A DNA stretch of 64,000 bases from Halodesulfovibrio sp. (lineage in GTDB: Bacteria > Desulfobacterota > Desulfovibrionia > Desulfovibrionales > Desulfovibrionaceae). Numbering within the stretch: position 1 is the stretch's first letter; every line of letters starts with the position of its first letter. A program made the translations under genes and the position numbers. The notes below the pieces were generated by a model that did no database searches, was not told where the DNA came from, and was given only the letters and a program-made list of their open reading frames with translations. Positions 11,982-41,149 of the stretch are shown in pieces. The DNA is taken from assembly GCF_015482765.1 (NCBI RefSeq), contig NZ_JADMLB010000066.1, positions 1 through 64,000 on the forward strand, read 5' to 3'.

Positions 11982-12138
11982 CCATGCAGGTATTGCAGCC
12001 TTAGTGTAGCTGGTGTAATTCAAGTAGGGAAAGACAACGGACTGCATGTATGCAGTTTTCGAGTTGTTCTGGGAATAGAGCCGGAGAGTGCGTGCTTTTC
12101 GGCTGATGAAGTCGTACTTATAAGCAAAGTTGGGTGAG

Positions 12139-14193
12139 ATGGTAGAGCATGAACCATTTGTTTCTCCAGACAAAAACAATACACCGGAAAACCGGCAGGC
12201 GTTGTTGAAAATTCTGGAGGCAGCAACAGGGATGGGGCATTTTGGGTATCGGTTAAGTGAAGTTGCCGATGTTTCGAGCATGCTGTCTGAAATTGCTGCC
12301 AATGTTGAGGCTATCCACCCCTTTAAGACGATGGCATTTTTGCTTGTAGATGAAGCGTCGCATGATTTTGTAATGTCATGGTGCTCTTCCGATGCAGCAA
12401 AACAGAGTATTACCGATGCCTGTCGTCAGCTTATGGAAGATCATACCTTTTCATGGGCTCTCCGTCGTAATCATCCTACTAATGTTACTTCTGAAGAACT
12501 TGGTGAAGTGTTATTGCATCCTTTGCAGACTTCATCTGGTCCTGTCGGCATGTTTGTGGGCGTGCTACCGGATGATAAGCCGGCGGAAGACGTTTCATAT
12601 TACCTGCTTTCCATGACGCTTGTTGCAGCAAGCATTGCTATTGAAAACTTTTTTCTTCTATCGCAGCTCTCAGAAAGTAATAGTGCGCTTGAAGAGAAAG
12701 TTACCAGCCGTACCGAAGAGTTGAGTGCTTCAAATAGGCAGCTCAGAAGGACTCTTCAAGAAAAAGAAAGATACAAGCAGCATTTGGAACTTCTGTTTTC
12801 GTCCATGCAGGACGTAATGATCTCAGTAGATCCGGAATTGACTGTGCAGAGTATTAACCGTGCAGGAGAAGAACTGTTCGGTGTTGTACAGGATGATGTG
12901 GTCGGCAAGTTGCTTCCGCAGGTTATGCCTGACCTTGCATTGCGTTGTGATGAATTTTTCCACGATGTCTTATCCTATGGTGAACGAATTGTAGAAGAGC
13001 GTGTAGAGCTGCTGCTTGATTCAGATGCACGCCACATTTTTATGATTAACTGTTCACCGTTCGCCTCTGGTGTTGAAGGGCAGCGAGGCGCAATGCTGAT
13101 GCTTCGTGATATTACCCGCCTTGTTTCTCTTGAAGAACAATTGCAGGAACGTCGTTCCTTTAAAAATATAATCGGAACCAGCAAGAGTATGCTGAATTTG
13201 TACTCTATGTTGGAAAACCTTGTTGATCTGGACACAACAGTGCTTGTCACTGGTGAGTCTGGAACAGGTAAAGAGCTTGTTGCAGAAGCTCTGCACCACA
13301 ACGGTGCCCGTGCTAACGGGCCGCTTGTTCGCGTGAACTGTTCTGCCTTGTCTGAAAACCTACTCGAAAGTGAACTTTTCGGACATGTTCGAGGTGCCTT
13401 TACCGGCGCTACAAAGGACAAAGTCGGTCGTTTTGAAGCGGCTGAGGGTGGTACAATTTTCCTTGATGAAATCGGGGACATTTCATTGCGTATTCAGGTG
13501 TTGTTACTCAGGTTCCTTGAATCACATGAATTTGAGCGCGTTGGCGATACTGTCACACGTAAAGCGAACGTTCGGATTGTAGCCGCTACAAATGCTGATT
13601 TGCAGCAGCGGGTAGCACAAGGCGTTTTCCGTTCTGACCTTTTCTACCGATTGAATGTTATGAATGTTCACCTTCCGCCGTTGCGTGAGCGTCTTGATGA
13701 CATGGCTTTGTTGGTACAGTTCTTCATTGATATGTTTAACGATACACTGGGGGTTTCTATTTCCGGTGTTTCAGAACAAGTCATGCAGATATTTATGAAC
13801 CATCCATGGCCGGGGAATATTCGTGAGTTGAAGCATACTATTGAACATGCTTCGATTCTTGCCCGTACCGGACGGATTACGCCGGAGCACCTGCCAGTTC
13901 AGATTTTGGGAGCCGATCCACTGTCTAGTTCTGATGTGGTTCGTCATCCTCCATATGGTGGCGGATACGGGGGAGGCTACGGTTCTCAATATTCTCCACA
14001 GCCTTTGATCAGCCCAAATGCATATATGCCGGCTTCACTTCAGCAAGCACGTGTGCCTTGTCACACGGTTACAGCTGAAGAGGTACAAGCGGCTATTGCT
14101 TCTGCAAATGGTAATAAAACTGCCGCTGCGAAATTATTGGGAATGGGTAGAGCTACCTTATATAGAAAGTTAAAGGAACTTGGATTAGGATAA
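12139..14193 (+). CDS. Sigma54-dependent enhancer-binding protein (GAF-like/PAS/AAA+/Fis)
   Basis: A transcriptional activator of about 684 residues. From the N-terminus it has a GAF-like sensory region (about 20-185), a coiled coil with TSRTEELSASNRQLRR, a PAS domain (about 220-330), the AAA+ domain with Walker A GESGTGKE and the sigma54-contact loop GAFTGA, then a Gly/Tyr-rich linker and a Fis-type HTH (NKTAAAKLLGMGRATLYRKL). It has no receiver domain, so it likely senses a small molecule or redox state directly. The start is ATG 12139. An in-frame TTG lies nine bases upstream, and neither has a clear ribosome binding site. Phased GTCTCA repeats and a sigma54 promoter follow the gene immediately and may be its target. 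Confidence 0.93.
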   Translation: MVEHEPFVSPDKNNTPENRQALLKILEAATGMGHFGYRLSEVADVSSMLSEIAANVEAIHPFKTMAFLLVDEASHDFVMSWCSSDAAKQSITDACRQLMEDHTFSWALRRNHPTNVTSEELGEVLLHPLQTSSGPVGMFVGVLPDDKPAEDVSYYLLSMTLVAASIAIENFFLLSQLSESNSALEEKVTSRTEELSASNRQLRRTLQEKERYKQHLELLFSSMQDVMISVDPELTVQSINRAGEELFGVVQDDVVGKLLPQVMPDLALRCDEFFHDVLSYGERIVEERVELLLDSDARHIFMINCSPFASGVEGQRGAMLMLRDITRLVSLEEQLQERRSFKNIIGTSKSMLNLYSMLENLVDLDTTVLVTGESGTGKELVAEALHHNGARANGPLVRVNCSALSENLLESELFGHVRGAFTGATKDKVGRFEAAEGGTIFLDEIGDISLRIQVLLLRFLESHEFERVGDTVTRKANVRIVAATNADLQQRVAQGVFRSDLFYRLNVMNVHLPPLRERLDDMALLVQFFIDMFNDTLGVSISGVSEQVMQIFMNHPWPGNIRELKHTIEHASILARTGRITPEHLPVQILGADPLSSSDVVRHPPYGGGYGGGYGSQYSPQPLISPNAYMPASLQQARVPCHTVTAEEVQAAIASANGNKTAAAKLLGMGRATLYRKLKELGLG

Positions 14194-14210
14194 ACACTGT
14201 ACTGTATCAA

Positions 14211-14257
14211 CTGTCTCAAGTTGTCTCAAAACGTCTCATGATACGTCTCATGAGACG
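14211..14257. promoter_or_regulatory. Four phased GTCTCA repeats, probable activator binding sites
   Basis: GTCTCA occurs at 14213, 14223, 14233 and 14245, that is at 10, 10 and 12 bp steps, close to one helical turn. The last is completed to the perfect palindrome CGTCTCATGAGACG (14244-14257). They start 20 bp after the stop codon of the sigma54 activator and about 80-120 bp upstream of a sigma54 promoter, the usual distance for enhancer sites. Confidence 0.6.
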
Positions 14258-14265
14258 TTTTTTTA
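14231..14265 (+). terminator. Terminator of the activator gene
   Basis: ACGTCTCATG (14231-14240) pairs with CATGAGACGT (14249-14258), followed by seven T. The same DNA carries the GTCTCA repeats, so it may have two roles. Confidence 0.75.
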
Positions 14266-14331
14266 TTTTCTCTTAAGAAAGGCTTTTTGTTTATTCCTAA
14301 TAAAAACAGACTGTTGTAAGTTTTTATAAAG

Positions 14332-14348
14332 TTGGCATTCTGTTTGCT
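14332..14348 (+). promoter_or_regulatory. Sigma54 promoter
   Basis: TTGGCATTCTGTTTGCT matches the sigma54 consensus TGGCAY-N5-TTGCW in nearly every conserved position. The invariant GG (14334-14335) and GC (14346-14347) are exactly 10 bp apart. The expected start is about 14358. No protein gene follows on this strand for more than 3 kb. A structured RNA with terminator does. Confidence 0.75.
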
Positions 14349-14358
14349 ATATAAAAGC

Positions 14359-14816
14359 AAGACCTGCTTGTCACAATGCAACACGAGGCAACAGGGCAAA
14401 AATTTCGGTCAGCAGTATCCTATACGATGCTGTACTACGCCTGAAGGTGCAGAGCCTTCCGACAGTCTTGGGGAAAAGATTGTTGGAACCCCGCTGGGGA
14501 ATAGTAAGGTTCCTGGAAGGTTTTGCACATATTGTCTGCACTTTCGAGTGCAGATCGGGGGATAGCCGGGTGAGGATTTTTCCTCATCGGGGCACGGGGG
14601 GGTATAGTACTCAAACTATACGCAATAGAGAGCAGGTTATGTCCCGCTCTGTTTCGCAGACAAAACGTTAGTTTTTGTGAATGCGGGGGAAAGCTGATGG
14701 ACGGCATGACCTGCCACGGTGGACGCAATTTACTGCGAGAATAATTATTCGGCTGAAGTTGCCGTATGAGTGCTATAGAAGAAAGCTGAGTATCTGTCTC
14801 GATACTCGGCTTTTTT
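14359..14816 (+). ncRNA. Candidate structured non-coding RNA under sigma54 control
   Basis: About 460 nt between a sigma54 promoter and a strong terminator. Stems seen are CAGCA/TGCTG (14410/14428), a three-way junction closed by CCTTCC/GGAAGG (14455/14515) that holds CAGTCTT/AAGATTG and GGAACC/GGTTCC, TCTGCACT-TTCG-AGTGCAGA (14535-14554), TGAGGA-TTTT-TCCTCA (14571-14586), and GTATAGT/ACTATAC (14602/14615). A 10-bp stem GCAGGTTATG/CATGACCTGC (14632/14705) encloses CCCGC/GCGGG with two hairpins, and the palindrome GAATAATTATTC (14739-14750) follows. GAAGG (14443) can compete for CCTTC, so a switch is possible. It lacks RNase P, tmRNA, SRP and cobalamin-riboswitch signatures known to me. Function unknown. 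Confidence 0.6.
14783..14816 (+). terminator. Terminator of the structured RNA
   Basis: A 12-bp stem AAGCTGAGTATC / GATACTCGGCTT (one G-T pair) with loop TGTCTC is followed by TTTTTT. Confidence 0.9.
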
Positions 14817-14842
14817 CTGCGATCAGTCGAAGAGAAATAACA

Positions 14843-14959
14843 AATTTCATCACTCTTCGCTGGTGAAATTGAGCACTGCCGCGCGTTACGCCCGCCGGCG
14901 TGCTCCTCGATTGGTAACATGGCTGCACATGAGGTTGTCTCCCTCAAATGCAGCCATGT
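14843..14959. repeat. Three successive long inverted repeats
   Basis: AATTTCATCA/TGGTGAAATT (14843/14861), GAGCAC+GCCG / CGGC+GTGCTC (14871-14905) and ACATGGCTGCA/TGCAGCCATGT (14917/14949, with an inner TGAGG/CCTCA) follow each other with few spare bases. No gene lies here. They sit between two terminators that point at each other. Confidence 0.55.
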
Positions 14960-14964
14960 TGTCG

Positions 14965-15002
14965 AAAAAAAACAGTGAACATGCTGTCAGCATGTTCACT
15001 GT
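14965..15002 (-). terminator. Terminator of the acs transcript
   Basis: ACAGTGAACATGCTG (14972-14986) is the exact complement of CAGCATGTTCACTGT (14988-15002). On the - strand it is followed by a run of eight T (14965-14972). It lies 165 nt past the acs stop codon. Confidence 0.85.
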
Positions 15003-39817: not shown

Positions 39818-41149
39818 ATGGTCAAAAAAAGCTATCTTCCGTTCGCTCTACCCATTGTGGCATTTTTAGGCACAATTCTCACGGGGGCTCTGTTGTTGCA
39901 CCACACGTCAGCAACCGGAGAGCTTTCAAGCATAGACGCATTGTTTATGTCGACATCGGCATTGTGCGTTACCGGTCTGGGAGTTGTCTCATGGGACACG
40001 GGATTCACCAGAGAGGGGCACTGGGTCATTCTTTGTCTGATCCAATTGGGCGGTCTGGGGGTTATGACCTACTCAACTCTTGCCTTTTATCTGTGGCGTC
40101 AGCGTGTGTCTCTGACAGATCGGCTCGCTGTCGGGACTGCTTTGTTGCACGATAATACCTTCCATTTGGGACTGTTTTTAAAACGGCTTGTCGTTATTGT
40201 TGCCTGTATTGAGCTGATCGGTGCGGTAATGCTGTATCTTATCGGGAGCGGAACATTTTCACCTTTCGAAGCGTTGTTTCATTCTGTGTCAGCTTTTTGT
40301 AATGCCGGAATTTCTCTTTTCCCAGATAACTTGCTGCAGTTTAAAAGCAATGTTGGCGTAATGTCTGTTGTGATGTTGCTTGTCGTGGCAGGTTCTCTGG
40401 GGTTCTCCGTACTCGATTCAGCGTATCTAAGAGTGAGGGGCTATAGTAACAAGCGGCGAAATTATTCAGTACGAATTATCTTGGTGACATCTCTCTGGTT
40501 GGTTGCAGGCGGTACTGCTGCCCTGTTTATCGTAAATGTACGAAGTATGGATTCGGGCGAAGAAGCTTTTGCAGCATTTTTCAGCGCGCTTTTTCATTCT
40601 GTGTCTGCTAGAACCGCTGGCTTTAATACAGTGCATGTTGAAGAAATGACAAACATGTCTTTATTGATACTATTGTTTCTTATGTTTGTGGGTGGTGCTC
40701 CGGGATCGTGTGCAGGTGGCGTGAAGGTTACAACAATGCGAGGTTTTTTTGCATTTCTGCGTGCTCAATTCCTCGGACGTAAACAAGTGATTATTGATGG
40801 AAGAGCGTTGGGGCAAAGCACAATTCATAAGATTTTGACGTTGGTTACCGGAGCGGTTTTGTTAATTTTTATTGGAACAGTTGCACTGACCTTAACTGAA
40901 GGAAAGAATTTATCGGAATTTGAAGTGCGTGGTCAGATGGTTGAGATTTTCTTTGAAGTTATTTCTGCCTTCACAACAGTGGGGATGAGTATCGGCTTTA
41001 CTGCGAAACTCACAAGCGTGGGGAAGTGCATCATAATGTTTATAATGATTGTTGGAAGAATCGGGCCTATCTGGATGCTTACTGCTTTACACAATGTTCG
41101 ACCCGACATTCGTTACGAAGTGCCGGAAATAGACCTGCCAGTAGGGTAA
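39818..41149 (+). CDS. ktrB: K+ uptake membrane subunit (TrkH/KtrB family)
   Basis: A 443-residue channel-like transporter with four membrane-pore-membrane repeats. The selectivity loops are visible as SALCVTGLGV, SAFCNAGISLFP, SARTAGFNTV and SAFTTVGMSIG. Length fits KtrB rather than the longer TrkH. It works with the nucleotide-binding KtrA encoded 11 bp downstream to import K+ (often with Na+). It is divergent from malic enzyme. Role: osmotic and pH homeostasis, fitting a marine organism. Confidence 0.94.
   Translation: MVKKSYLPFALPIVAFLGTILTGALLLHHTSATGELSSIDALFMSTSALCVTGLGVVSWDTGFTREGHWVILCLIQLGGLGVMTYSTLAFYLWRQRVSLTDRLAVGTALLHDNTFHLGLFLKRLVVIVACIELIGAVMLYLIGSGTFSPFEALFHSVSAFCNAGISLFPDNLLQFKSNVGVMSVVMLLVVAGSLGFSVLDSAYLRVRGYSNKRRNYSVRIILVTSLWLVAGGTAALFIVNVRSMDSGEEAFAAFFSALFHSVSARTAGFNTVHVEEMTNMSLLILLFLMFVGGAPGSCAGGVKVTTMRGFFAFLRAQFLGRKQVIIDGRALGQSTIHKILTLVTGAVLLIFIGTVALTLTEGKNLSEFEVRGQMVEIFFEVISAFTTVGMSIGFTAKLTSVGKCIIMFIMIVGRIGPIWMLTALHNVRPDIRYEVPEIDLPVG

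Follow-up and report, generated by a model that had tools for sequence, protein, structure and literature searches.

The window, the 64,000-nt stretch of Halodesulfovibrio sp. DNA analyzed here, almost certainly carries a gene for a structured noncoding RNA with a conserved fold, as judged by comparison with related genomes. The predicted RNA lies on the plus strand at 14358–14817, its start placed by a sigma54 promoter and its end by an intrinsic terminator, which would give a length of ~455 nt. Six of the ten genomes of the genus share one order of activator gene, GTCTCA boxes, sigma54 promoter, RNA, and terminator, and the same comparison supports the candidate promoter, the operator, and a single target for the activator. 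Our overall reading, which we hold at somewhat less than even confidence, is that the locus is a one-target regulatory switch making a trans-acting decoy RNA with two alternative states.

Fold, conservation, and distribution of the RNA

The alignment examined (A1) holds six sequences, from the window's own genome and five others of the genus. Folded as a single sequence the RNA has z = −7.8, with none of 100 shuffled versions as stable, and for the alignment the RNAalifold energy has z = −14.7 against 60 column shuffles, −14.6 when the terminator is left out, and −9.7 when the 3' domain is taken by itself. The consensus fold comprises 155 pairs in 16 helices, with 94.1% of 916 cells paired (89.6% in shuffled alignments), and 37 of the 155 pairs have changed on both sides, against 14.7 in the shuffles. 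None of the five covariation measures is reached by any of 500 shuffles, which ignore the relatedness of the six sequences, and sliding the partners by 1–3 columns lowers pairing to 39.5–45.2%, a lenient control in that the fold was derived from the tested alignment itself. Compensatory base changes within a common fold, the mark of a structured RNA gene, are thus present; the original prediction of a large structured RNA region of ~460 nt is borne out by both the fold z and the six-genome covariation.

The central multi-branch domain (helices 4–9, 14435–14602) has 84.9–96.4% of its cells paired, and both partners have changed in 19 of its 60 pairs; the long helix of the 3' domain (helices 11–13, 14632–14714), which carries a G-rich bulge, has 8 of 32 pairs of this kind. 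Helix 2, which is G-U rich, helix 10, which is invariant, and helix 14 have none, and the fewest paired cells are found in helix 12 (83.3%) and helix 8 (84.9%). When A1 is folded together with the upstream DNA, 40 of 172 pairs are changed on both sides, but helix 2 is not recovered and part of its 3' strand pairs with the boxes. Read on the antisense strand, the alignment still yields a fairly stable fold (−215.6 versus −258.7), as base pairing read backwards would lead one to expect. The intrinsic terminator that had been predicted at the 3' end (14778–14817) is paired in 100% of cells in the six sequences, with 2 of its 17 pairs changed on both sides. Along the predicted transcript, mean pairwise identity in A1 starts at 0.52 for the initial portion, is 0.75 across the core and 0.67 across the 3' domain, and climbs to 0.88 over the last helix strand and terminator, immediately beyond which it drops to 0.25.

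Among frames of at least 15 codons we found none with a start and stop conserved across the six sequences, in agreement with the earlier remark that no frame there has a ribosome binding site or family match. A small protein was likewise rejected as a candidate: three start positions are common to four of the six sequences, each with any given stop common to at most two.

By blastn, the region 14190–14830 is found in its own genome and in five of the nine other genomes of the genus, at 70–84% identity, with no match in 49 other genomes of the family or order. Covariance models of 14435–14602 (R1) and 14603–14778 (R2) gave one match each in the own genome and found the same six carriers, R1 as its only matches among 288 family genomes and R2 among 348 order genomes; these large searches used stricter Infernal filters, so that some weak matches will have been lost. 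In 395 genomes of the phylum R1 found its own genome and one more, G487; with an E-value of 0.041 per single genome and that many genomes searched, we take this match as chance. The RNA region has no match in phage and plasmid records at E 1e-5, and no exact 16-mer of it occurs in viral contigs. Rfam 15 at gathering score returns only tRNA in the 64 kb, and in E-value mode no match in the RNA region attains the gathering score of a family, which agrees with the prediction that the RNA belongs to no known family. A literature search, whose reach mostly excluded subscription papers, found no description of it. As far as these searches show, the novelty lies in the sequence and fold of the RNA.

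Two further features lie between the RNA and the acs gene or close behind the terminator. A block at ~14882–14942 (coordinates approximate, from a gapped alignment) has a mean pairwise identity of 0.65, with 0.48 and 0.38 in the 60-column windows before and after it and 0.56 and 0.58 further on. A long near-perfect palindrome at 14970–15002, which may be a minus-strand terminator for acs, gives a sub-threshold microRNA match in Rfam E-value mode.

Promoter, operator, and activator

Upstream of the noncoding region, the sigma54 promoter TTGGCATTCTGTTTGCT (14332–14348) has the −24/−12 form TGGCAY-N5-TTGC. Its GG (14334–14335) and GC (14346–14347) are separated by 10 nt, the spacing originally described, and TTGGCA and TTGCT are unchanged in all six sequences, within a promoter whose mean pairwise identity in A1 is 0.83. 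The gene that precedes it (12130–14193, plus strand) encodes, from its Pfam matches, a sigma54 activator (enhancer-binding protein) of 687 aa with a weak GAF-like N terminus, a PAS_4 domain, an AAA+ domain with GAFTGA, and a Fis-type helix-turn-helix with GRATLYRK. The E-values are 3.1e-67 for Sigma54_activat, 9.2e-12 for PAS_4, and 2.7e-12 for HTH_8; GAF_3 is sub-threshold, at 22.1 bits against a cut-off of 27. The motifs G..G.GK, GAFTGA, and GRATLYRK stand at residues 375, 422, and 673. In a scan of genome contigs with the activator the best protein match, 94% identical, comes from Halodesulfovibrio spirochaetisodalis JC271 (L008), and the runner-up is 45% identical. All ten genomes of the genus have the activator, at 93–100% identity in six and 50–54% in four (G002, G003, G005, and G006), and the recognition helix GRATLYRK is identical in the window and those four.

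Four GTCTCA boxes (14213–14256; starts at 14213, 14223, 14233, and 14245) lie between this gene and the promoter, at the predicted steps of 10, 10, and 12 and with the fourth box inside CGTCTCATGAGACG, palindrome GTCTCATGAGAC. They are the candidate sites of the activator. Mean pairwise identity in A1 is 0.82 over the boxes and 0.44 over the spacer that follows. The pattern GTCTCA-N3..7-GTCTCA has three matches in the 3.71-Mb genome, all at the activator locus, and since the reversed-pattern control likewise has three, it is the clustering rather than the number that stands out. The perfect 12-mer GTCTCATGAGAC occurs once in the genome, and allowing one mismatch raises this to 6 sites, compared with 10 for the control. 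Across the genus, 14-mers within one mismatch of TGTCTCATGAGACA are found at the activator locus in four of the ten genomes (G001, G003, G005, and G007) and not there in the remaining six; off the locus there are three, one each in G000, G001, and G008, and the reversed-pattern control also gives three per strand in the ten genomes. Within the window a copy of the operator 14-mer with one mismatch, TGTCTCATGGGACA, occurs at 39985–39998, probably by chance, because the reversed-pattern control is as frequent in the own genome.

The boxes also persist beside the 50–54% identical activators carrying GRATLYRK, with one clear box only in G002. A paralogous activator in G001 and G004 has the recognition helix SRTTLYRW or SRPTLYRW, and its upstream repeats, judged by eye, are GTAAC/GTTAC. 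We assign the GTCTCA boxes to the adjacent activator because they occur in tandem at a single place, persist with GRATLYRK, and give way to other repeats where a paralog has another helix, and we regard this correspondence of helix and box as good evidence for the predicted sites. Since the tandem boxes occupy one place in a 3.7-Mb genome, the activator probably has a single target. Putative sites for a specific activator thus stand upstream of the promoter, as in noncoding RNAs controlled by sigma54 and an enhancer-binding protein, and we consider it highly probable from the sequences that sigma54 controls the RNA through the adjacent activator.

In the two stretches with the paralogous activator (L057 and L058; G004:C13 and G001:C2), that gene is followed by the GTAAC/GTTAC repeats, a sigma54-like promoter assigned by eye, a thioredoxin-like gene, and a large ORF that by eye resembles a flavoprotein reductase; the G004 copy of the activator has one in-frame TGA.

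The last two boxes overlap a 14-bp hairpin followed by a T-run (14228–14264), with strands at 14228–14241 and 14248–14261, 97.6% of cells paired, and both-side changes in 3 of 14 pairs. From its sequence this is likely the terminator of the activator gene. As boxes 3 and 4 themselves form the covarying hairpin ahead of the T residues, the operator would overlap the activator terminator.

RNAs controlled by sigma54 beside an activator gene are a known kind. In Desulfovibrio vulgaris, 36 sigma54 regulons have been described, with 201 coding genes and 4 noncoding RNAs, three of the four assigned to the neighboring activator (PMC4641369); these RNAs lie downstream of DVU0653 and DVU0679 (Dv_sRNA2) and upstream of DVU2357 and DVU3282 (PMC4641369, PMC3333781), and Dv_sRNA2, behind DVU0679, was seen on tiling arrays and is described there as of unknown function (PMC3333781). 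The likeness to the RNA described here consists of related sulfate-reducing hosts, a sigma54 promoter, and mostly a neighboring activator. On the other hand, R1 matches 0 of 282 other family genomes and R2 0 of 342 other order genomes, sets that may or may not include D. vulgaris Hildenborough. A prediction of noncoding RNAs has also been published for Oleidesulfovibrio alaskensis (PMC11124144). The original prediction held that the upstream activator drives a new class of structured RNA; the structure and the lack of an Rfam match stand, and "new class" has to be qualified, because the literature already reports sigma54 RNAs near activator genes (PMC4641369, PMC3333781, PMC4063720).

Repeated elements, alternative pairings, and proposed mode of action

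The RNA contains five copies of a GGGG element, which we defined as GGGG[AGT][AT][AT]AG after inspection of the RNAs. Elements 1 (GGGGAAAAG, 14470–14478) and 2 (GGGGAATAG, 14496–14504) form the hairpin loops of helices 6 and 7, element 3 (GGGGGATAG, 14557–14565) lies partly within helix 4 of the predicted fold, element 4 (GGGGTATAG, 14599–14607) stands at the start of the alternative helices described below, and element 5 (GGGGGAAAG, 14685–14693) bulges out where helix 11 meets helix 12. In the predicted fold, elements 3 and 4 occupy helix ends and are partly paired. The six RNAs have 5, 4, 3, 4, 4, and 3 copies, the window five, compared with an expected 0.05–0.07, and 0 of 500 shuffles reach the count in any of the six. 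The laxer form GGGG[AG]?[AT]{2,3}G has 6, 6, 3, 4, 5, and 4 matches, reached by 0, 1, 11, 3, 0, and 4 of 500 shuffles. Five G runs of at least 4 are invariant in all six RNAs. We dropped a classical local G-quadruplex as an explanation of these runs, since ViennaRNA, when permitted to form them, put no G-quadruplex into any of the six sequences, by a method blind to the tertiary type.

Two competing pairings had been proposed as a switch, and they fared differently. CCTTCC/GGAAGG is part of helix 5, in which 7 of 14 pairs have changed on both sides, whereas the GAAGG/CCTTC switch is not upheld, with all 5 pairs formed in four sequences but only 3 in G008 and G001, the two most divergent. A different exclusive choice is kept in all six RNAs. 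The strand UAUAGUACUC (14603–14612) can pair either locally with 14615–14621 or with the distant strand GAGUGCUAUA (14768–14777), and both long-range strands are invariant in all six. In the local state (A) the hairpin GUAUAGU/ACUAUAC at 14602–14621, with ACUC in its loop, is paired in 100% of cells; five of its seven pairs never vary and two vary on one side, and the rest of the loop varies in length and sequence. The long-range helix (state B) never varies, so that covariation speaks neither for nor against it. When folding is constrained to one state or the other, the energy gap is 0.9–8.1 kcal/mol, the local state being lower in four of the six, and the local hairpin is strongly favored in four of the six sequences (mean pair probability at least 0.88). 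Tested jointly, the activator terminator and the local hairpin have three both-side changes, reached by 93 of 500 shuffles, and their number of pair types is reached by 496 of 500; on the three remaining measures no shuffle does as well. A built-in strand exchange starting at the ACUC loop is, on these sequences, possible rather than probable. The loop of helix 3 (14412–14433) has CUAUAC in five of the six RNAs, a third possible partner for the GUAUAG at 14602–14607.

In the mechanism we propose, the activator, with its PAS domain and weak GAF match, would sense a signal, bind the four GTCTCA boxes ~100–145 bp upstream of the start, and drive sigma54 RNA polymerase to make one noncoding RNA of ~455 nt. 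This RNA would fold into its multi-branched core and act in trans, mainly by offering an RNA-binding protein the GGGG-N-W-W-A-G elements exposed in RNA loops and bulges; a burst of RNA would then titrate that protein away from the rest of its targets, much as CrcZ draws off Hfq. While the RNA is being made, the 3' strand at 14768–14777 could invade the local hairpin at 14602–14621 from the ACUC loop, giving two states. That the RNA is transcribed, answers a signal, works as a decoy, and switches is what we infer; a trans-acting regulator working as a protein decoy seems to us rather less than an even prospect.

By analogy, the closest working counterpart is CrcZ, itself a protein decoy. CrcZ of Pseudomonas aeruginosa is a 407-nt RNA, dependent on RpoN and CbrB, in which six A-rich stretches titrate Hfq (PMC4063720), and the cbrB-crcZ intergenic region of Azotobacter vinelandii has been described (PMC6292655). 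Together with CrcY these RNAs of Pseudomonas and Azotobacter share with ours an RpoN-dependent promoter, a length of ~400 nt, and repeated protein-binding motifs, and here too the sigma54 promoter adjoins the gene of its putative activator. CbrB is an enhancer-binding response regulator, whereas the activator here is a one-component protein with a PAS domain. The A-rich motif that binds the distal face of Hfq, AAnAAnAA, is found in none of the six RNAs, which have instead the GGGG element and a conserved multi-branch fold.

Well-known sigma54-driven small RNAs (Qrr, GlmY) mostly act by base-pairing or through processing, a precedent for an RNA that pairs with mRNAs, its conserved loops serving as seeds that the structure displays and protects. 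Invariant, weakly paired stretches such as AAATTTYGGTCA at 14400–14411 would suit this role, but ~455 nt and 155 conserved pairs far exceed the needs of a seed, and the repeated element suggests a repeated ligand. We consider this base-pairing RNA rather unlikely. An ornate structural RNA forming a particle, dimer, or scaffold is a still weaker prospect. It would account for the multi-branch architecture, the invariant loops, and the self-complementary CUAUAG of the 3' strand (14773–14778), and the large, highly branched RNAs OLE, ROOL, and GOLLD are reported to homo-oligomerize (PMC12286853); the RNA has, however, no Rfam match to these or other families and no phage or plasmid match, and its coupling to a single activator points to a regulatory role.

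A sponge for CsrA resembling CsrB/RsmZ, in which repeated G-rich loop elements also occur, is very unlikely. The genome has one csrA match, each RNA has 5–9 GGA, and 2 of the 5 flagellin leaders examined have GGA-loop hairpins; nevertheless each RNA has only 0–2 copies of ANGGA, the motif preferred by CsrA, none of them placed alike in all six, the conserved GGA is preceded by GG, and Rfam gives no match. The many A(N)GGA hairpin loops of CsrB/RsmZ thus have no equivalent here, ANGGA being absent or sporadic, and on their motifs (ANGGA and AAnAAnAA) we set aside both the CsrA sponge and a CrcZ-type Hfq decoy. Flagellin leaders in L083 and L085 carry GCAUGGAUGC or UGCAAGGAUGCA, and AACCUGGAGGUU, which can form GGA-loop hairpins on or close to the ribosome binding site, where CsrA sites would be expected.

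Two outputs within the genus

In the four genomes with the 50–54% identical activator (G002, G003, G005, and G006), activator, boxes, and a sigma54-like promoter precede a gene for a protein of 136–138 aa, so that the outputs of one circuit are the RNA in six genomes of the genus and a thioredoxin-like gene in four. A scan of two of these four proteins gave only thioredoxin matches below threshold, and the promoter of G002 failed the search pattern and was assigned by eye. An HDOD gene, the activator, and the sigma54 output follow in this order in all four (L071–L074); acs comes next in three (L071, L073, and L074) and is absent within the stretch L072, and it is preceded in the relatives by an extra ORF of 715–763 aa. 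Searching G000, G007, G008, and G009 with the thioredoxin-like protein returns nothing at E ≤ 1e-5, and G001 and G004 have a distant copy (27–31%) beside the paralogous activator.

Short stretches of apparent similarity, following one another in the same order in the RNA and the thioredoxin-like ORF, prompted a test of homology. Neither nhmmer --max, which found no match, nor blastn (best E 0.22) connects the RNA with the thioredoxin-like mRNA. When the four loci of the relatives were searched with R1 unfiltered, the best E-values were 0.035 and 0.073, both opposite to the transcript strand, and 0.91 on the transcript strand within an output region; unfiltered R2 gave 0.31. With no convincing match from any of these searches, we left descent of the RNA from that mRNA unproven. 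A structured 3' UTR in the relatives was rejected, z being −5.5 with the terminator and −0.33 without the last 55 columns.

That the RNA is a decayed or dual-function mRNA derived from the relatives' thioredoxin-like gene is accordingly the least probable of the alternatives: the place, activator, boxes, and promoter are the same as in the four relatives, the gene is without a match in the four genomes just named, and exact 11–12-nt words around GGGGAAAAG and GCGGGGGAAA are common to the RNA and G005, but these words run in opposite order, nhmmer finds nothing, the blastn, R1, and R2 matches are weak (the best R1 match on the wrong strand), and the relatives' 3' UTR without terminator has z = −0.33 compared with −14.6 for the RNA.

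Behind the thioredoxin-like gene the relatives (L053–L056) have a tail of 250–266 nt with no overall conserved structure besides the terminator, in which there remain isolated hairpins with a GGGG loop, GAGCGC-GGGG-GCGCUC in three and GAGCAU-GGGG-AUGCUC in G003. In G003 and G006 (L055 and L056), by eye, ~290–380 nt separate the activator gene from the boxes, an insert with partly degenerate repeats that resemble GTCTGCCATC and GGTCTG.

The most specific form of the decoy reading is a large switching RNA whose five invariant G runs, kept in loops and bulges, bind a dedicated protein or form a tertiary G-quadruplex, whose ACUC strand exchange opens or closes it as the 3' end forms, and whose circuit in the sister lineage drives a thioredoxin-like protein. 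We think this combination unlikely; if true, it would mean that one control circuit has been rewired between protein and RNA output within a genus. The comparison in any case adds a covariation-supported, multi-branched bacterial RNA that has no Rfam entry. Its apparently single-target activator offers an experimental handle, as deleting one regulator should cost the cell one RNA. Within the genus one activator-operator circuit serves two outputs, a structured RNA (six genomes) and a thioredoxin-like protein (four genomes), which makes the locus well suited to studying whether regulatory RNAs take the place of proteins or emerge alongside them, and how.
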